Virus record (IMG/VR): IMGVR_UViG_3300020442_003467
Coordinates: 1-35,113 of that record
Direction: 5' to 3' (one strand)
From: a virus
Length of the DNA: 35,113 bases
Shown here: in pieces, positions 1 through 35,113 of the stretch
Position numbering within the stretch: position 1 is the stretch's first letter
Layout of the letters: every line of letters begins with the position of its first letter
The notes under the pieces: generated by a model
Told to the model about the DNA's origin: nothing
What the model saw: only the letters and a program-made list of their open reading frames with translations
Database searches by the model: none
Position numbers and translations under genes: made by a program

Positions 1-1335
1 GCTGCATCATCTGGAACCGTATCAACTGAACAAGCTCAAGCATCTGCTGGAAGCGCAACGCAATCTTCACAACAAGCTACAGTATCAACTGAACAGGCTC
101 AAGCTTCAGCAGGAAGTGCAACACAATCTTCTACAAGTGCTAGCACGTCTACTTCTTCAGCTACAGCTTCAGGGGATAGTGCAACTGCAGCAGCTTCATC
201 TGGAACTGTATCAACAGAACAAGCACAGGCTTCAGCGGGAAGTGCAACACAATCTTCACAACAAGCTACAGTATCAACTGAACAAGCTCAAGCATCTGCT
301 GGAAGCGCAACACAATCTAGTAATAGTGCAACTGCAGCAGCTTCATCTGGAACTGTATCAACTGAACAAGCTCAAGCATCTGCTGGAAGCGCAACAGCAT
401 CCAGTCAAAGTGCTGGACAATCGAGTACAAGTGCAAGTACTAGTACATCATCTGCGACTGCTTCTGGTAACAGTGCAACACAATCTAGTCAAAGTGCTGG
501 ACAATCGAGTACAAGTGCTAGCACGTCTACTTCTTCAGCTACTGCTTCTGGAAATTCTGCAACACAATCTAGTAATAGTGCAACGACTTCTACGCAGCAA
601 GCTCAAAACTCAGCCTCAAGTGCTACTTTAGCAGATTCATCTGGAACTGTATCAACTGAACAAGCTCAAGCATCTGCTGGAAGCGCAACACAATCCAGTC
701 AAAGTGCTGGACAATCTTCCACGAGTGCAAGCACATCTACTTCTTCTGCGACTGCTTCTGGTAACAGTGCAACACAATCTAGTCAGAGTGCTGGACAATC
801 TTCTACAAGTGCAAGTACATCTACTTCTTCAGCTACAGCTTCTGGTAACAGTGCAACACAATCTAGTAATAGTGCAACAACTTCAACTCAACAAGCTCAA
901 TCATCTTCTACAAGTGCAAGTACTAGTACATCATCTGCTACAGTATCTGGAACCTTTAAGACACAAGCTGAAGGATTTAAGACTCAAGCTGAAACATTTA
1001 AGACTCAAGCGTCAAGTTCAAAAGCAGAAGCAGAAGATCAAAAAGTTTTAACGATAGGATTTAAGACTCAAGCTGAAACATTTAAGACTCAAGCTGATAC
1101 AGCTAGATCAAGTGCTGTAGTTGCTAAGGGACAAGCTGAAACTGCAAAGACGCAAGCTGATGATGCTAAAGATGATGCAGAAAGTTTTGCGCAAGATGCA
1201 GACAATGCGAAGACTCAAGCAGAAACTGCAAAGACTCAAGCTGATACAGCAAAGACACAGGCTCAAACTGCAAAGACTCAATCTGAAACTGCAAGGACTC
1301 AATCTGAAAATGCAGCAACGGTTTCCACACAGCAA
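1..1335 (+). repeat. Ser/Ala/Gln-rich and heptad repeat region of the tail fibre gene
   Basis: Degenerate in-frame repeats. In 1-955, units such as ACTGAACAAGCTCAAGC and AGTGCAACACAATCTAGT recur many times. From about 955 to 1320, 21-base units of the type GCAAAGACTCAAGCTGAAACT encode heptads. This is where recombinational length changes would be expected. It also produces Leu/Gln/Lys-rich open frames on both strands that are not genes. Confidence 0.85.
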
Positions 1336-2343
1336 TCGGTATTAGGTTCTTCTGCACTTGTTAGAACACAGGGAGGTGCAGCTATCACTATGAGTGGTGG
1401 AGAGATAAACGTTCCTGATTCAACAAATCCTAAATTTCATGTAGATACAAGTGGAAATACAACAATTTCAGGATCGTTAAAGGTATTCGAAGGACAAGCT
1501 GGTGGTAGTGATTTCGGTATAGAGTTCAACAATGATGATTCTGGTGACATGTTTGTTAAATTCCAAGGGGCAAATCCAAAGTTAATATTGAATGAAGTAG
1601 ATAGTGGACTAACTATGGGAACTCCAGCTATTAGAATGGTTAGAGGAGGTGATGGTAATGGTTTTAGTTTCTCTGGTCAAACAGATGAAGGGGAACATGG
1701 TAAAGATTTCGGTCATTTTGTTATGGGTACATCTAATCAGCCAAGTGTTGGAGATGCAGAGAGAACTATAAAAATGATATTTGGTGGTAATTTGCACCAA
1801 TCCTCAACAGTTGGTGGTTATTACGGTCATAGTGGCGGAGCTGATGGAAACAGTAATGGGTATGCTATGGCTTTCAGAAGTGGCTCCAATATGATCAAGA
1901 TAAATGATCACCTTGGATCTGGTGGATATACATGGAGTTATCATTTAGATGTTGGTGGAACGATTAGGGCAACAGGAGACGTGATAGCATATTCGGATGG
2001 AAGACTAAAGCACAATATAGAGCATCTTACGGGCTCCCTAGCTAAAGTCTTGATGTTAGACGGTGTAACATACGAGTGGAAACAAAAACACGATCAATTT
2101 TCTACCCTTGAAGAAGATAAGTGGGGACATAATACTGGTCAACCAGAAGGTAGAAAATACGGATTTATTGCTCAAGATGTTGAAGATATTATACCGTATT
2201 CAATCAATGAGGATGAAGCTGGATACAAAAACATGAGTTACGGTCCATTAGTTGCAGTGTTAGTACAGGCTATGCAAGAGCAACAATCTGAAATAGATGG
2301 ATTAAAAGAAGATATTAAAAAAATAAAAGAAGAGGTAATGTAA
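1..2343 (+). CDS. Long tail fibre with C-terminal S74 chaperone domain (5' partial)
   Basis: The frame is open from base 1, so the N-terminus lies outside the window; the ATG at 1390 is internal. Residues 1 to about 318 of the fragment are a Ser/Ala/Thr/Gln repeat (STEQAQASAGSATQSS, SASTSTSSATASG). About 319-445 are Lys/Gln/Ala heptads (AKTQAET, AKTQADT) expected to form a trimeric coiled coil. A beta-rich receptor-type domain follows. The last ~116 residues are a peptidase S74 (endosialidase-type intramolecular chaperone) domain: the SDGRLK motif at 665-670 fits the Ser-Asp autocleavage site, followed by YGFIAQDVE and a terminal coiled coil. In this family the chaperone trimerises the fibre and then cuts itself off. 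Its stop overlaps the next ATG by one base. Family call is firm; receptor unknown. Confidence 0.9.
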   Translation, partial: AASSGTVSTEQAQASAGSATQSSQQATVSTEQAQASAGSATQSSTSASTSTSSATASGDSATAAASSGTVSTEQAQASAGSATQSSQQATVSTEQAQASAGSATQSSNSATAAASSGTVSTEQAQASAGSATASSQSAGQSSTSASTSTSSATASGNSATQSSQSAGQSSTSASTSTSSATASGNSATQSSNSATTSTQQAQNSASSATLADSSGTVSTEQAQASAGSATQSSQSAGQSSTSASTSTSSATASGNSATQSSQSAGQSSTSASTSTSSATASGNSATQSSNSATTSTQQAQSSSTSASTSTSSATVSGTFKTQAEGFKTQAETFKTQASSSKAEAEDQKVLTIGFKTQAETFKTQADTARSSAVVAKGQAETAKTQADDAKDDAESFAQDADNAKTQAETAKTQADTAKTQAQTAKTQSETARTQSENAATVSTQQSVLGSSALVRTQGGAAITMSGGEINVPDSTNPKFHVDTSGNTTISGSLKVFEGQAGGSDFGIEFNNDDSGDMFVKFQGANPKLILNEVDSGLTMGTPAIRMVRGGDGNGFSFSGQTDEGEHGKDFGHFVMGTSNQPSVGDAERTIKMIFGGNLHQSSTVGGYYGHSGGADGNSNGYAMAFRSGSNMIKINDHLGSGGYTWSYHLDVGGTIRATGDVIAYSDGRLKHNIEHLTGSLAKVLMLDGVTYEWKQKHDQFSTLEEDKWGHNTGQPEGRKYGFIAQDVEDIIPYSINEDEAGYKNMSYGPLVAVLVQAMQEQQSEIDGLKEDIKKIKEEVM

Positions 2344-2644: not shown

Positions 2645-3781
2645 ATGAAAATAGGAGTTACATTCGGTACAAGAGACCATTCGGAAACGGCACACAATAC
2701 TGGAATCTTACAGAATTCAGTTAACCTTGTCACGTGTTTAAATCATATACACGAAACGTGGTTGGTTCAAACTTGCTTTCCAATGGATAATAATAAAAAA
2801 TACGAATTCAACATTTATGATTACCCAGTTGTGGGAATAGATGAAATATTTAGGGACGAAAAGCTTTTTGGTTTTGATATGATGATTATTTTGGGTGGAG
2901 AGTTGGTAGATTCAGATCTGGAAAGTTTACAAAATGGAGGCGTAAAGGTCGTCTATTATAATTGTGGAGCAATGTATCAGCTCCATGTCATGGATGTTAT
3001 TTTTGGAAAAACAAAGGATGAAAAATATTGGAGAACCAGATACCAAAATTATGATGGAGTTTGGTGTATTCCCCAAAATTGGAAAAGAAATGAGTATTAT
3101 CAGAGGGTTTTATTTAGACAAGATGAAATACCAGACGTTCCATTTTTATACGATCCAACATTTATTGATAAAGGATTACATGCTTTAGATTCTAATTTTC
3201 AAAAAGCAGTGTACAAACCAAATAGAAGTGTAGGAAAACGACTTTCTATTATGGAATCTAATAGGGATTGGTTAAAAAATTATGTACAACCTTTGCTTAT
3301 CTCTGAATCAGTGTACCGTAAAAAACCAGAGTTAATAAGTCAAATATCAATAAACAATTTTGATGGGTTTAAAGATGTAAATTTAGATACACTTTTAGAA
3401 ACTATGGATGTATGGATGTCTAACAATACCATATCGTACGTAAATGGTTGGTTTCCAGTTTATGAATATTTAGAAACATACACAGATATTGTAGTTAGTC
3501 ATCAGAGAGATAACGAATTAAGTTATTATCCTTTAGATATTTTGTATTTAGAATATCCATTGGTGCACAATTACGGATTAATAAGGGACGCTGGTTATTA
3601 TTATGAAGATTGGAATTTTGATCAAGCAGAAGAAAAATTAGAAGAAGCTTTGCGCTTTCATGATACAAACTTAGATATATATAATCATAGAGCGAAAAAA
3701 GTTTTAGATCGATATTCACCGTTTAACGGAGACAATATCGATAAGTATAGTAAGTTAATAAAACAATACATAGGAGAATAA
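2645..3781 (+). CDS. DUF2827/GT-B-like putative glycosyltransferase
   Basis: 378 residues. It starts MKIGVTFGTRDHSET followed by GILQNSVNL, then a Rossmann-like stretch (FDMMIILGGELVDSDLESL, then VKVVYYNCGAMY). The second half contains VWMSNNTISYVNGWFPVYEY and an acidic region near SYYPLDILYLEYPLVHNYG, where GT-B enzymes bind the sugar nucleotide. The start and overall order resemble DUF2827 proteins, often found beside phage fibre genes and considered glycosyltransferase-like. AGGTGA precedes the ATG. Its place between fibre genes and a 2OG oxygenase suggests modification of a virion protein or host surface glycan. Family assignment is from memory; the substrate is unknown. Confidence 0.55.
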   Translation: MKIGVTFGTRDHSETAHNTGILQNSVNLVTCLNHIHETWLVQTCFPMDNNKKYEFNIYDYPVVGIDEIFRDEKLFGFDMMIILGGELVDSDLESLQNGGVKVVYYNCGAMYQLHVMDVIFGKTKDEKYWRTRYQNYDGVWCIPQNWKRNEYYQRVLFRQDEIPDVPFLYDPTFIDKGLHALDSNFQKAVYKPNRSVGKRLSIMESNRDWLKNYVQPLLISESVYRKKPELISQISINNFDGFKDVNLDTLLETMDVWMSNNTISYVNGWFPVYEYLETYTDIVVSHQRDNELSYYPLDILYLEYPLVHNYGLIRDAGYYYEDWNFDQAEEKLEEALRFHDTNLDIYNHRAKKVLDRYSPFNGDNIDKYSKLIKQYIGE

Positions 3782-17950: not shown

Positions 17951-18151
17951 ATGGCAATACAAGTTAAGGTTATAAACAACAAGTTTGAGCTAGCTCTCAG
18001 AAAATTCAAAAGAAAAGTAAAAGATTCTGGTATATTACACGAATTACAACAAAGACAGTTTTATGTAAAACCGTCAGCTGTTAAACGTGATAAGAATGCT
18101 AAAGCCAGATTGCGTGCACAGGTCCGTTCTCGTAAGGAACGCGAATCTTAA
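17951..18151 (+). CDS. rpsU: Phage-encoded ribosomal protein bS21
   Basis: 66 residues, SD AGAGGT. The core FELALRKFKRKVKDSGIL, then HELQQRQFYVKPSAVKRD and a Lys/Arg-rich tail, follows the bS21 pattern ALRRFKR...G.L.E.RRREFYEKP; cellular bS21 is about 70 residues. In the host, bS21 sits on the 30S platform near the anti-Shine-Dalgarno end of 16S rRNA and helps initiation. A phage copy may exchange into host ribosomes and favour phage mRNAs. Such genes are known in other marine phages. It is the last gene before the scaffold/capsid leader, so it is probably expressed late. Confidence 0.9.
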   Translation: MAIQVKVINNKFELALRKFKRKVKDSGILHELQQRQFYVKPSAVKRDKNAKARLRAQVRSRKERES

Positions 18152-29270: not shown

Positions 29271-32200
29271 ATGCCAGGTGGATTTGGATTTTTTAAAGAG
29301 TTTAAGTTTAACACAACTTATACGACTTCTAGATCAACAACGACTACGTTTCAGACTACCACTACGTTTCAAACTACCACTACGTTTAATACCAGTAAGT
29401 CTACTACTACGACTTATAATACAACTACTTCGACAACTACAACGTATACAACAAATAGGTCGACTACTACAACATTTAATACAAGTAAGTCTACTACGAC
29501 TACTTACACCACAACGTTTGCAACAAGCAGAACAACTGAAACTACAAGATCTACTAATACTACTACAACGTATACAACTACGTTTGAAACTACACGCTCA
29601 ACGTCTACTAGTAGAAGTACAAATACAGTAACCCAATACACTACTACTTTTGAAACCTCTAAAAGTACGTCTACTAGTAGATCTACAACCACTCAATATA
29701 CTACGTTTTTCCCAACGTCTAGGTTGACAACTATACAAACAGTTACTCAGTATACAACTACGTTTGCAACTACACAAACAACAACTACAACATTTCAAAC
29801 TAACACAATTACTCAGTATACAACAACATTTGAAACTAGTAGATCTACAGATACAACAATTAATACGACTACAACTTATACAACTACGTTTGAAACGAGT
29901 AGATCTACGAATACTAGTAGATCAACAAACACAACTACTACTTATACCACTACGTTTGCAACAAGTAGGGCAACCAACACTATCATACAAACAAATACTA
30001 CAACCACGTATACAACATATTTTCAAACATCTAGATCTACAGAAACAAGTAAAACAACGAATACTGTTACTCAATACACTACTACTTTTGCAACGAGTAG
30101 ATCTACAACTACGACTATACAGACAAATACTGTAACTCAATACACTACAACATTTGCTACTAGTAGATCAACAAATACAATAATTCAAACTAATACCGTA
30201 ACGACGTATACGACATTTTTTGAAACTAGTAGAAGCACAAATACAAGTAGAAATACAAATACAACTACTCAGTACACTACTACTTTTGCAACCAGTAGAT
30301 CTACAACTACAACTATACAGACAAACACAACTACTCAATATACAACTACGTTTGCAACAAGCAAAACAACTGCGACAACATTTCAAACTAATACAGTAAC
30401 GCAATATACTACTACGTTTGCAACGAGTAGAACAACTGAGACAACATTTCAAACTAATACAATTACACAGTATACAACAACGTTCGCAACTAGTAAATCG
30501 ACATCAACATCCAGATCAACTAATACAACTACGACGTATACGACATCATTTCAAACAAGTAAAAATACGTCTACTAGTAGATCTACAACCACTCAGTATA
30601 CTACGTTTTTTAATACTAGTAGCATTACAAATAGAACTACAACAACTGTTTTTGTTACTGGGTTCGAAACGTCAAGTATTACGAATAAGTCTACTACAAC
30701 TACGTTTAATACAAGTAGAACAACATCTAGTATTACAAACAGAACTACAACGACTTCGTTTGAAACTACTACAACATTTAATACGTCAAGCATTACAAAC
30801 AGGACTACTTCCACTACTACTGTTTTTACAACTACGTTTAATACGAGTAGTATAACAAATAGAACTACTAGCACCACTACAACATTTAATACGACCATTA
30901 ATACATCTAGAACTACTACGTTCCAGACAACATTTAATACAAGTAGGTCTACAAATACAACTACTACCTACACTACTACGTTTGCAACGAGTAGAAATAC
31001 AAATACGACTACAACATACACAACAACATTTGCAACAAGTAGAACTACTAATAGAACTACAACTACACAGTATACGACTACATTTGCAACGAGTAGAAAT
31101 ACAAATACGACTACTACTTATACTACTACGTTCGCAACAAGTAGAACCACAAATAAAACTACAACTACTACGTTTACCACAACATTTAATACGTCAAGTA
31201 TAACCAACAGAACTACGTCAACAACAACTACATTTAACACCAGTAGCATTACTAATCGAACTACTAATACTGTTTTTACAACTACGTTTAATACAAGTAG
31301 CATTACAAACAGAACTACAAATACGACTACAACTTTTCAAACAAGTAGTATTACAAATAAGACTACTTCTACAACGACTACATTTAATACAAGTAGTATT
31401 ACAAATAAAACTACGTTGACCACATTCACTACTACGTTTCAAACATCTAGTATTACAAACAGAACTACGTCTACAACTACTACATTTAACACTAGCAGTA
31501 TTACAAACAGAACCACTAACACAGTGTTTACTACTACTTTTCAAACATCAAGTATTACGAATAGAACTACTTCGACAACCACGACGTTTGGAACATCTAG
31601 TATAACCAACAGAACTACGTCAACAACTACTACGTTTAATACGAGTAGTATTACTAATAAGACTACTTCTACGACCACTACATTTCAAACTAGTAGTATT
31701 ACAAATAAAACTACTAACACGGTATTTACTACGACATTCCAAACTAGTAGCATTACAAGCAAATCTACGACAACTGTTTTTGTTACAGGGTTCGAAACTT
31801 CTAGTGTAACAAATAAGACTACTTCTACGACCACTACATTTCAAACATCTAGTATTACGAGTAAAACTACTAACACTGTTTTTACTACTACTTTCCAAAC
31901 TAGTAGCATTACGCATCTAACTACTAATACGGTGTTCACTACTACTTTCCAAACTAGTTCAGGTACGAGTCATACTACGTCTACGACCACTACATTTACT
32001 ACTACTATACAGACAAACACAACTACTACGTATACCACAGAGTTCAATACTAGTAGATCGACTAATACTACGACTCAGTATACAACATATTGGCAGACAA
32101 GTAGGAGCACAAACACAAATACCCAATACACCACGTATTTTACTACTAGTAGGTCTACAAATACTAATACGCAATATACAACATATTTTAATACAAGTAG

Positions 32201-33824
32201 ATCTACAAACACAAATACACAATACACAACGTATTTTCAGACAAGTAGAACGACGCATCTAACTACTAACACAGTGTTTACAACTACGTTTGGCACGAGT
32301 AGTATTACAAATAGATCTACGTCCAGAACTACTACGTATCAAACTAGTAGATTGACTAATCATGCTACAACCACAACATTTAATACTACGTATGAAACAA
32401 ATAAAACTACAACTACTCAGTATACATCTCAATGGATAACTTACTATAGTACGAGCAGTAGTACGAGCAGTATTACTAATAGAAATACAAATACGACTAC
32501 AATTTTTACTACTACTTATAATACGAGTAGGTCTACTACTACAAAGTTTAATACCAGTACATCTCGCAATACGACAGAGAGTAGAAGCACTGTTACGAAG
32601 TATACTACAACTACTACGTTTACAACTACGTATACCACTACGTATAATACTACATTTCAAACAAATAGACAAACGTATAGGTACACTTATTTTTTAACAA
32701 GTAGAGCTACGGACAAAACGACTACGTATAACACATCTAGAACAACGACATACGCAACGTACTATACGACGTCTTGGAATACAGGTGGCTGTTTATGGGA
32801 GGGTCATTTCTTACAAATGGCAAATGATTCTAATGTCGAACTTGTGAATGCAACAGAGTGGACAACGGCACAAAACGACGAAGATCATGACATAACATTA
32901 TGGAGTGGATCTGGAGATGATGCTTATCCAATATCTGCAAGTTTACAATACGTAAAAAGTATACGTTTACCTGGATTACCAACTGGCTCAAATTTTGCAG
33001 ATGATGTATTTGAAAATTATGAGAATTGGAGAGGCACACAAGAACAAATAGATTCGGCTTCTATGTCTCCAGCATTTATAAAGGGAGTATTTAAGTCTTC
33101 GTTTGATGTGTATTATTCGATGTTCTTGGAAAACGGTAAAGAAATAAAATTTAGTTGGGATCATCCTACATTTATTAAGCGAGATGGAGAATATAGATTC
33201 GTATTAGCACAAGATATAACAACATCAGATCAGGTAATGGACATAAACAAGAATTTGATTGATGTTACTTCAATGTCTTTTCAATCCGAATCCATAAATA
33301 TGGTAGAATTAAATGTTGAAGAAAAAGACGTTTACTTCGTAGAAGATATTTTATTTCATAATGCATTCAAGTGTTTCATGCCAGATCAGTTGATTTCAAT
33401 GGCAGATGGAGAGTTAAAAGAAATACAATATGTTGATGTTGGAGAAATGATACTTGCTTGGGATGAAAATAGCAATTCAGTAAAAGAAAGTGAAGTTTGC
33501 GAAATACAAACAAAGATGCACGATGATGTATATGAAATGACATTAGCAAACGGAAAGAAATTAAAACCAACTGGTAACCACCCATTCTTAATTTTTGGAA
33601 AGGGTTGGTGTACGATTGATAAGTATGAGCTAAACCATGGTGGTGGAACAGGGGTGATAAACGTTGGGGATGAAGTATACGATGTATCGAGTGGAGTTCC
33701 CGAGAGAGTAAAGGTCACGAAGCTCGAGCCAATAGAGGGAGCATTTACAACGTATAACTTTATAGATACAGAGTATAAGACTATCATTGCAGATGGTATA
33801 ATTACACACAATACAGGAAAATAG
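29271..33824 (+). CDS. Giant Thr-rich repeat protein ending in two tandem Hint (intein-like) domains
   Basis: 1517 residues, SD AGGAGAG. After a short start (MPGGFGFFKEFKF), residues ~14-1170 are Thr/Ser repeats with Tyr/Phe at regular intervals; about half of all residues are Thr. The first type is ~22 residues (QYTTTFATSRSTTTTIQTNT), the second ~16 (TTTFNTSSITNRTTST), later QYTTYFNTSRSTNTN. Residues 1174-1364 and 1368-1514 are two Hint domains (own entries), after which only TGK remains before TAG. Regular aromatic spacing suggests a beta-solenoid or extended fibre; dense Thr/Ser could be glycosylated. Repeats at protein level use mixed Thr codons. Next to fibre genes, so virion or surface-associated is likely; function unknown. 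Confidence 0.85.
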   Translation: MPGGFGFFKEFKFNTTYTTSRSTTTTFQTTTTFQTTTTFNTSKSTTTTYNTTTSTTTTYTTNRSTTTTFNTSKSTTTTYTTTFATSRTTETTRSTNTTTTYTTTFETTRSTSTSRSTNTVTQYTTTFETSKSTSTSRSTTTQYTTFFPTSRLTTIQTVTQYTTTFATTQTTTTTFQTNTITQYTTTFETSRSTDTTINTTTTYTTTFETSRSTNTSRSTNTTTTYTTTFATSRATNTIIQTNTTTTYTTYFQTSRSTETSKTTNTVTQYTTTFATSRSTTTTIQTNTVTQYTTTFATSRSTNTIIQTNTVTTYTTFFETSRSTNTSRNTNTTTQYTTTFATSRSTTTTIQTNTTTQYTTTFATSKTTATTFQTNTVTQYTTTFATSRTTETTFQTNTITQYTTTFATSKSTSTSRSTNTTTTYTTSFQTSKNTSTSRSTTTQYTTFFNTSSITNRTTTTVFVTGFETSSITNKSTTTTFNTSRTTSSITNRTTTTSFETTTTFNTSSITNRTTSTTTVFTTTFNTSSITNRTTSTTTTFNTTINTSRTTTFQTTFNTSRSTNTTTTYTTTFATSRNTNTTTTYTTTFATSRTTNRTTTTQYTTTFATSRNTNTTTTYTTTFATSRTTNKTTTTTFTTTFNTSSITNRTTSTTTTFNTSSITNRTTNTVFTTTFNTSSITNRTTNTTTTFQTSSITNKTTSTTTTFNTSSITNKTTLTTFTTTFQTSSITNRTTSTTTTFNTSSITNRTTNTVFTTTFQTSSITNRTTSTTTTFGTSSITNRTTSTTTTFNTSSITNKTTSTTTTFQTSSITNKTTNTVFTTTFQTSSITSKSTTTVFVTGFETSSVTNKTTSTTTTFQTSSITSKTTNTVFTTTFQTSSITHLTTNTVFTTTFQTSSGTSHTTSTTTTFTTTIQTNTTTTYTTEFNTSRSTNTTTQYTTYWQTSRSTNTNTQYTTYFTTSRSTNTNTQYTTYFNTSRSTNTNTQYTTYFQTSRTTHLTTNTVFTTTFGTSSITNRSTSRTTTYQTSRLTNHATTTTFNTTYETNKTTTTQYTSQWITYYSTSSSTSSITNRNTNTTTIFTTTYNTSRSTTTKFNTSTSRNTTESRSTVTKYTTTTTFTTTYTTTYNTTFQTNRQTYRYTYFLTSRATDKTTTYNTSRTTTYATYYTTSWNTGGCLWEGHFLQMANDSNVELVNATEWTTAQNDEDHDITLWSGSGDDAYPISASLQYVKSIRLPGLPTGSNFADDVFENYENWRGTQEQIDSASMSPAFIKGVFKSSFDVYYSMFLENGKEIKFSWDHPTFIKRDGEYRFVLAQDITTSDQVMDINKNLIDVTSMSFQSESINMVELNVEEKDVYFVEDILFHNAFKCFMPDQLISMADGELKEIQYVDVGEMILAWDENSNSVKESEVCEIQTKMHDDVYEMTLANGKKLKPTGNHPFLIFGKGWCTIDKYELNHGGGTGVINVGDEVYDVSSGVPERVKVTKLEPIEGAFTTYNFIDTEYKTIIADGIITHNTGK
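29310..32780 (+). repeat. Thr-rich coding repeat array
   Basis: In-frame repeats of 48-66 bases built from ACN codons, with ACTAGTAG and TTT/TAT as recurring landmarks. About 29700-30600 holds the 22-residue type, about 30610-31970 the SSITNRT type and about 32040-32260 the QYTTYF type. Copies vary by synonymous codons, so long exact repeats are rare. Antisense frames read as Val/Leu- or Cys/Ser-rich and are not genes. Confidence 0.9.
32790..33362 (+). other. Hint domain 1 (intein/BIL-like) in the Thr-rich protein
   Basis: Encodes residues 1174-1364 (191 residues). It opens with Cys1174 in GGCLWEGHFLQMANDS (block A pattern C-L-x2-G-x-x-L-x-M-A). A block B-like FSWDHPTFIK carries the conserved His. 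It closes with VYFVEDILFHN (blocks F and G). The residue after the terminal Asn is Ala1365, not Ser/Thr/Cys, so normal splicing is not expected; this matches A-type bacterial intein-like domains, which mostly cleave. No endonuclease domain is visible. Confidence 0.72.
33372..33812 (+). other. Hint domain 2 (mini-intein-like) in the Thr-rich protein
   Basis: Encodes residues 1368-1514 (147 residues), three residues (AFK) after domain 1. Cys1368 begins CFMPDQLISMADGELKEI (block A). LKPTGNHPFLIFGKGW is block B with conserved Thr and His. It ends YKTIIADGIITHN, blocks F/G with the His-Asn pair, and the following residue is Thr1515, a valid +1 nucleophile. Size fits a mini-intein without endonuclease. 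All splicing residues appear present, but only Thr-Gly-Lys follow before the stop. Confidence 0.85.
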
Positions 33825-33825
33825 T

Positions 33826-35113
33826 GTGCCAGTAACTAGTAGACAAACGAGCAGAAATACATCAAGAACGACTACGTATAACACGTCTAGAACTACGGTT
33901 TTCAATACCTCGTGGAATACATCTAGGATTACCGTGTATACAACATATTGGAACACTACTAGGAGTACGAGTAGAACTACATCTAAGTCGACTAATAGAA
34001 GTACAGCTGTACAGCATAACACTACGACTGAGTATACGACTAGTACTACGTTTGCAACTGAAACTTTAAAGTCTACTACTACAACGTATACAACAAATAA
34101 GTCGACAACTAGAAGTACAAATACGACTACTACCTATACAACTACCTATACAACTACTTGGCAAACTTACAGACCGACAAGTACCATAACGAATAAGAGT
34201 ACGACTACTGTATATAATACAAGCAAAAGTACCAATCATAGTACGACCACTGAATACACTACGTATTTTCAAACTAGCAAAACTACAACATTCGTAACAC
34301 AATACACAACAACATTTGCAACTAGTAGAAGTACCAATCATAATACGATCACTGAGTATACAACATATTTTCAAACTAGCAGCATTACGAATAAATCTAC
34401 GAATACAACTACTTCGTGGCAAACTTCTAGCATTACGAACAAATCTACGAATACAACTACTTCGTGGCAAACTTCTAGCATTACGAATAAATCTACGAAT
34501 ACAACTACATCATGGCAGACCAGTAGTATAACAAACAAAACTACGTCTACGACTACTTCGTGGCAAACTTCTAGTATTACGAATAAAACTACGACAACTG
34601 AAACAACTTATAGCACTAATCGAAGTACTAACACGACTACTGAGTACACTACGTATTTTGAAACCAGTAGAACAACAAATAAAAATACTGTAACACAATA
34701 CACTACGTATTTTCAGACTAGCAGAAGTACAAATAGAAATACAACGACTGAGTATACGACATATTTTCAAACTAGTAGAAGTACAAATACTGTAACGCAA
34801 TACACTACGTATTTTCCAACAAGTAGAACCACTAATAGAGCTACAACGACCGAGTATACGACATATTTTCAAACTAGTAGAAGTACAAATAGAAATACAA
34901 CTACTCAATACACCACATATTTTCAGACAAGTAGATCTACCAATACTGTAACTCAGTATACAACTACGTTTGCAACTAGCAGAACTACTAATACAACGAC
35001 TCAGTATACAACTTCATTTGCAACTAGTAGATCTACTAACACTACGACCACGTATACGACATATTTTCAAACTAGTAGGACTACAAATAGAAATACGACT
35101 ACTCAGTACACTA
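33826..35113 (+). CDS. Thr-rich repeat protein (3' partial), possibly continuing the preceding gene
   Basis: 429 codons open to the window end with no stop. A GTG start at 33826 has AGGA (33815-33818) seven bases upstream and lies one base after the TAG of the preceding gene, so restart is plausible. The start (VPVTSRQTSRNTSRTTTYNT) resembles the segment just before Hint domain 1 (TTTYNTSRTTTYATYYTTSW). The body has ~18-residue units (TEYTTYFQTSRSTNRNTT) and 16-residue units (SITNKSTNTTTSWQTS). Its frame is +1 relative to the upstream gene; one base less in the AAAA at 33818-33821 would join the two as one protein. Function as for the upstream repeat protein: unknown, probably an appendage. 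Confidence 0.75.
   Translation, partial: MPVTSRQTSRNTSRTTTYNTSRTTVFNTSWNTSRITVYTTYWNTTRSTSRTTSKSTNRSTAVQHNTTTEYTTSTTFATETLKSTTTTYTTNKSTTRSTNTTTTYTTTYTTTWQTYRPTSTITNKSTTTVYNTSKSTNHSTTTEYTTYFQTSKTTTFVTQYTTTFATSRSTNHNTITEYTTYFQTSSITNKSTNTTTSWQTSSITNKSTNTTTSWQTSSITNKSTNTTTSWQTSSITNKTTSTTTSWQTSSITNKTTTTETTYSTNRSTNTTTEYTTYFETSRTTNKNTVTQYTTYFQTSRSTNRNTTTEYTTYFQTSRSTNTVTQYTTYFPTSRTTNRATTTEYTTYFQTSRSTNRNTTTQYTTYFQTSRSTNTVTQYTTTFATSRTTNTTTQYTTSFATSRSTNTTTTYTTYFQTSRTTNRNTTTQYT
34381..34572 (+). repeat. Four tandem 48-base units
   Basis: Units start at 34381, 34429, 34477 and 34525 and each encodes SITNKSTNTTTSWQTS or a close variant. The first two differ by a single base and the third departs only near its end, while the fourth differs at many synonymous sites. 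This indicates a recent duplication inside an otherwise codon-scrambled array. Confidence 0.9.

Follow-up and report, generated by a model that had tools for sequence, protein, structure and literature searches.

Translationally coupled gene pairs are co-directional, are separated by a gap or overlap of a few nucleotides, and have the Shine-Dalgarno sequence of the downstream gene within the end of the upstream one (PMC10666635, PMC6728339). Very short intergenic distances favour coupling (PMC10666635), and distances of −4 or −1 nt are the commonest (PMC10666635, PMC6728339). At the programmed +1 frameshift site of prfB an AGGGGG-like Shine-Dalgarno sequence is located six nucleotides before the stop, and the slippery sequence is CTTT, the stop TGA and the following base C (PMC12421855). 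Among phage proteins, the virion structural protein gp110 of Erwinia phage pEa_SNUABM_2 has a repetitive shaft and a C-terminal Hint domain which ends in HN-T and a short tail.

The window analysed here is an entire IMG/VR contig of 35,113 nt, and its source is a T4-like phage. It contains two consecutive Thr-rich genes, A and B, which probably encode virion proteins. An earlier note on this DNA described a stop and a frame change at the exit of the second Hint domain of A, which direct reading confirmed at the same coordinates, and gave three readings without choosing any of them; the first one, a restart at GTG 33826, was right. The site is almost certainly a junction of two co-directional genes, where A ends with TAG 33822 and B starts independently at GTG 33826. 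The junction resembles those of coupled pairs in gene direction, in its short gap and in the position of the second Shine-Dalgarno sequence, but the gap is +1 nt instead of −4 or −1 and the start codon is GTG; coupling is predicted here.

Anatomy of the junction

The features of the locus, all on the + strand, are as follows.

29271..33824, +, gene A, encoding Thr-rich repeats followed by two Hint domains at the C-terminus (ORF of 1517 aa, stop TAG 33822-33824; gene A also occurs in relatives)
29271..32789, +, repeat section of gene A, Thr-rich, made of tandem units of about 48 nt or multiples of this; its last residues are ...SWNTGG
32790..33362, +, Hint domain 1 (D1): from Cys1 TGT 32790, right after Gly-Gly, to LFHN (Asn 33360-33362); based on relatives, alignment, model and Foldseek
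33363..33371, +, AFK linker joining D1 and D2 (sequence reading)
33372..33812, +, Hint domain 2 (D2): from Cys1 TGT 33372, with TGNHP, to ITHN (profile matches)
33799..33801, +, TAA closing the frame of gene B, 27 nt upstream of its GTG start
33813..33824, +, TGK tail of three residues and stop TAG of gene A (short tails follow HN in 28 of 29 phage Hint loci)
33815..33818, +, AGGA, the Shine-Dalgarno sequence of gene B within the last codons of gene A, 7 nt before GTG (same placement in L010, L022, L035 and L037)
33826..35113, +, gene B, encoding the other protein of Thr-rich repeats and starting at GTG 33826 (MPVTSRQTSRNTSR), based on the N-termini of 18 relatives with their own ATG and on gap statistics

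Gene A ends with the codons CAC 33807 (H), AAT 33810 (N), ACA 33813 (T), GGA 33816 (G), AAA 33819 (K) and TAG 33822-33824, the last four bases before the stop (33818-33821) being a run of A. The stop had been placed three residues beyond HNT, which was a small miscount: it is three residues from His-Asn but two from HNT. As had also been described, Thr-rich coding then resumes in another frame, and this is gene B, which begins with GTG 33826-33828 and CCA GTA ACT AGT AGA (PVTSR) and is still open at the contig end after 429 aa. No other usual start codon is present between the TAA at 33799-33801 and this GTG. The sequence GTGTG gives a second GTG at 33824, whose frame runs for three codons before it is closed by a stop; similarly ambiguous starts have been described in E. 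coli (PMC9841429).

The pattern NTG-CCN-NNN-ACN-Ser-Arg occurs on the + strand of the window only once, exactly at 33826, and not at all on the − strand. When AGGA-N4-9-RTG-CC..TSRxT was searched for in 2.9 million viral contigs, 10 contigs matched, two of them with Thr-rich genes of the same family and the other eight by chance. A pattern scan for more B starts gave, besides the known family, chance matches only.

Ribosomes would terminate translation of A at the TAG and restart one base further on at the GTG, with the help of the AGGA. Gene B would thus be read from a Shine-Dalgarno sequence embedded in the last codons of A, probably in part by ribosomes which have just completed A (termination-reinitiation), while fresh initiation at GTG 33826 is also possible. 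The frame change would then be merely the consequence of a 1-nt intergenic gap. We infer that the genes are coupled in vivo and that both proteins are produced. In the same contig the terminase and portal genes are likewise separated by +1 nt, and Shine-Dalgarno-like purines precede most of the other genes. The junction itself is ordinary.

Genes A and B in related phages

Relatives were found by scanning viral contigs of IMG/VR for Thr-rich motifs, which revealed a phage family in which the Thr-rich genes A and B follow one another. The family has no name in the libraries used. Gene B starts at an ATG of its own in 18 relatives, where a stop 6-18 nt further upstream closes its frame, and the encoded protein begins with M-P-[NLQ]-T-S-R in 17 of these and with MGLTSR in the remaining one. 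The window agrees with (GTG) M-P-V-T-S-R-Q-T, differing in the use of GTG for ATG, and in the position of the second gene a few nucleotides from the preceding stop it is like other paired phages (L003, L020, L037, L048, L057 and others), in which this gene begins with MPxTSR. The distance from the upstream stop to the start of B was determined for 24 relatives, several of them near-duplicates, so that the counts overstate independence: it was +1 nt in ten, +2 in six, +3 in one, −8 in six and +16 in one. Stop and start are thus co-located within about 10 nt in 23 of the 24 (−8 to +3 nt), and the +1 nt of the window is the commonest value. A restart at GTG 33826, which had been proposed on the basis of the well-spaced AGGA, is strongly supported by these B starts and by the 7-nt spacer, and the true start of gene B is fixed.

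A programmed +1 ribosomal frameshift at AAA-TAG, with AGGA as a prfB-like stimulator and an A-Hint-B fusion as the product, was another of the earlier readings. It would account for the Shine-Dalgarno-like AGGA right before an in-frame stop and for a downstream ORF in the +1 frame, and in the purines before the stop the site is indeed like prfB. However, the window has AGGA three nucleotides before the stop, AAAT, TAG and a following T, and so departs from prfB in the spacing, the slippery codon, the stop itself and the next base; none of the features checked agrees with a prfB-type site. In addition, the genes of the relatives are separate, with gaps of −8 to +16 nt. As these separate genes span all three frame relations, there is no conserved frameshift site, and we consider programmed frameshifting very improbable.

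Three upstream contexts of gene B were found among the relatives: gene A directly, a methyltransferase-like gene, or a methyltransferase-Hint gene. In most of the paired phages A and B are separated by a methyltransferase-like gene, whose product may or may not include a Hint-like domain. The ORF preceding B, which is complete in L010, L020, L022, L035 and L037 and a contig-end fragment in L030, has an N-terminal methyltransferase-like domain (weak Pfam matches) and a C-terminal Hint-like domain. The following such proteins, with the Hint-like domain C-terminal, are located between the two Thr-rich genes.

L020:4321-5373, methyltransferase-like protein with Hint-like domain
L022:882-1943, the same
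L035:693-1730, the same
L037 4901-5938, −, the same
L010 8088-9149, −, the same

The Hint-like domains of these proteins do not have a terminal His-Asn, and the ORFs end with ILIKNGGKDA*, ILIRKGGADA* or ILMKGGSDG*. The domain of L016, L035 and L037, identical in sequence in the three, is related to the Hint region of the window (local phmmer 3.6e-6), and that of L020 matches it weakly (0.0017). The start of gene B precedes the end of the methyltransferase-Hint ORF by 8 nt, at a relative frame offset identical to that of the window, and the Shine-Dalgarno sequence of B, e.g. GGAGGAAAAG-ATG or AGGAGGATCTG-ATG, lies within the last Hint codons. The ACAGGAAAATAGT-GTG of the window has the same arrangement, with the stop slightly shifted. 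After methyltransferase-Hint ORFs the B protein begins with MPNTTTT or MANTTTT, which represents another type of N-terminus within the family. With this arrangement in the relatives, the AGGA and the frame change are explained without recoding. A comparison of homologous loci had been proposed earlier, and an unrelated gene behind the Hint domain was regarded as ruling out fusion or frameshift; in spirit this is what was found, as in L010, L020, L022, L035 and L037 a Hint-terminated ORF is followed by a separately started Thr-rich gene.

In the third earlier reading the A4 run has one base wrong, through sequencing or assembly, and this masks a giant Hint-interrupted protein; such an error is supported neither by the window nor by the relatives, in which A and B are separate. 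A single indel would join the frames, and the Thr-rich gene A of L010, a contig of the same family, is indeed broken by a change of frame. Against this, 544 homopolymers of four or more are found within intact ORFs of the contig, a start codon, a Shine-Dalgarno sequence at 7 nt and the family N-terminus MPxTSR would all have to occur at the break by chance, and no A-B fusion was seen among the relatives holding both genes. The single long Thr-rich ORF of L043 has an internal GTG, but its ends differ from those of A and B, and for this reason it was left out of the fusions. An error is thus an unnecessary explanation and a very unlikely one. Still less credible is a recent genuine mutation which split a once-fused A-B gene, leaving a pseudogene-like or phase-variable tail: the sequence alone, with Thr-rich repeats on both sides, does not argue fully against this, but wherever both genes were seen in a relative, A and B are separate and the N-terminus of B is the same. 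The separation is therefore most simply ancestral. The boundary between independently started genes removes the tempting but wrong claim that the site is one of recoding or that a giant protein is interrupted by inteins, and it places the contig in the phage family with paired Thr-rich proteins.

None of the paired phages found in IMG/VR carries a gene A with two fused Hint domains like that of the window, and as no close tandem-Hint relative was found, the comparison holds no direct orthologue of the exact junction. A tblastn search of a phage collection with the Thr-rich parts gave no matches, for which the low-complexity filter may be the cause.

Tandem Hint domains of gene A

The repeat part of gene A comprises about 1170 residues. 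At 32790-33812 two complete Hint domains follow in tandem with AFK between them, and both belong to the Hint superfamily, D2 by profiles and D1 by relatives and fold. The two-domain region matched Pfam Intein_splicing above the cut-off (6.8e-11). D2 alone was just below it (2.3e-7), but matched NCBIfam intein_Nterm above the cut-off (7.8e-8), and among solved structures its sequence is weakly related to, for example, the RadA intein and a bacterial intein-like (BIL) domain. Relatives of D1 reach E-values of 2e-16. AlphaFold with 16 sequences gave a good model for D1 and a weak one for D2, whereas with 5 sequences the result was poor (pLDDT 36). The D1 model is confident over most of the domain, and its best Foldseek matches are BIL domains and inteins. 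Single-sequence searches of IMG/VR with D1 alone and D2 alone gave no relatives.

D1 appears BIL-like, with GG|C ... FHN|Ala, the Hint fold, Cys1 and HN, and no nucleophilic +1 residue; BIL domains lack the +1 nucleophile (PMC7664689). D2 begins with Cys-Phe-Met-Pro and has the residues of a splicing intein: Cys1, TGNHP as block B (Thr-x-x-His), HN, and Thr at +1. In place of a functional C-extein only TGK precedes the stop. D2 looks appended, because in other phages the proteins related to D1 terminate directly behind the D1-type HN.

HNT had earlier been taken as the ideal start of a C-extein. The residues HN|T are present in D2, but this was misleading, as Hint ORFs of phages normally stop soon after HN. 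Searching with a profile of D1 and two phage relatives yielded 29 viral Hint loci, and in 28 of them 0-18 residues separate the Hint match from the end of the ORF; many of the 29 are from related Erwinia-type phages, and the loci are not 29 independent cases. Typical ends are HN-VHGK*, HN-TDIVAKAEKT* and HN-KGSNDNPFD*, and usually the stop is within about 10 residues of HN. Since such an end is the norm in phages, Thr after HN and a short tail are not signs of a missing extein. HN-TDIVAKAEKT* is the C-terminus of the Erwinia phage collagen-like shaft with Hint, and gp110 of pEa_SNUABM_2 differs from gene A in its collagen-like shaft, single Hint domain and ten-residue tail.

In the relatives gene A ends with an S74-like domain, with a poly-Gly tail ending CxRGCx, or with something else. 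The S74-like C-terminus is above the Pfam cut-off in L041 and just under it in L047 and L057. The window has GG|Cys and the two Hint domains at this position. Within the family, three kinds of module (Hint-like, methyltransferase-like and S74-like) are interchanged in the surroundings of the two Thr-rich genes. The tandem Hint, S74-like and poly-Gly-Cys modules could all be processing or attachment modules. A more specific but improbable prediction is that the tandem Hint is a self-cleaving C-terminal processing domain, which would release a Thr-rich fibre with a Gly-Gly thioester end to be joined to another virion protein, possibly B. If so, A and B would be separate as genes and their proteins linked by protein chemistry. 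A literature search gave no paper on Hint domains combined with Thr-rich repeats in phages.

Phage setting of the contig

The portal protein of the window is about 51-56% identical to the portals of Microcystis phage Mel-JY01 and Flavobacterium phage immuto. In the examined regions of the nearest portal relatives (Mel-JY01, immuto and LR756508) no Thr-rich pair was found. The portal of the uncultured phage LR756508 (L006:30764-34924) has several intein-like domains inserted, whereas that of the window is uninterrupted.

The beginning of the window (1-2343) encodes a Ser/Thr/Ala/Gln-rich repeat protein, truncated by the contig start, with an S74 chaperone domain at the C-terminus (9.1e-14). A DUF2827 protein (1.3e-68) is encoded at 2645-3781, surrounded by structural genes. 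Ribosomal protein bS21 (66 aa; Pfam Ribosomal_S21, 8.8e-15) is encoded at 17951-18151 on the + strand, also amid structural genes, and Mel-JY01 has an annotated RpsU at roughly the same place.
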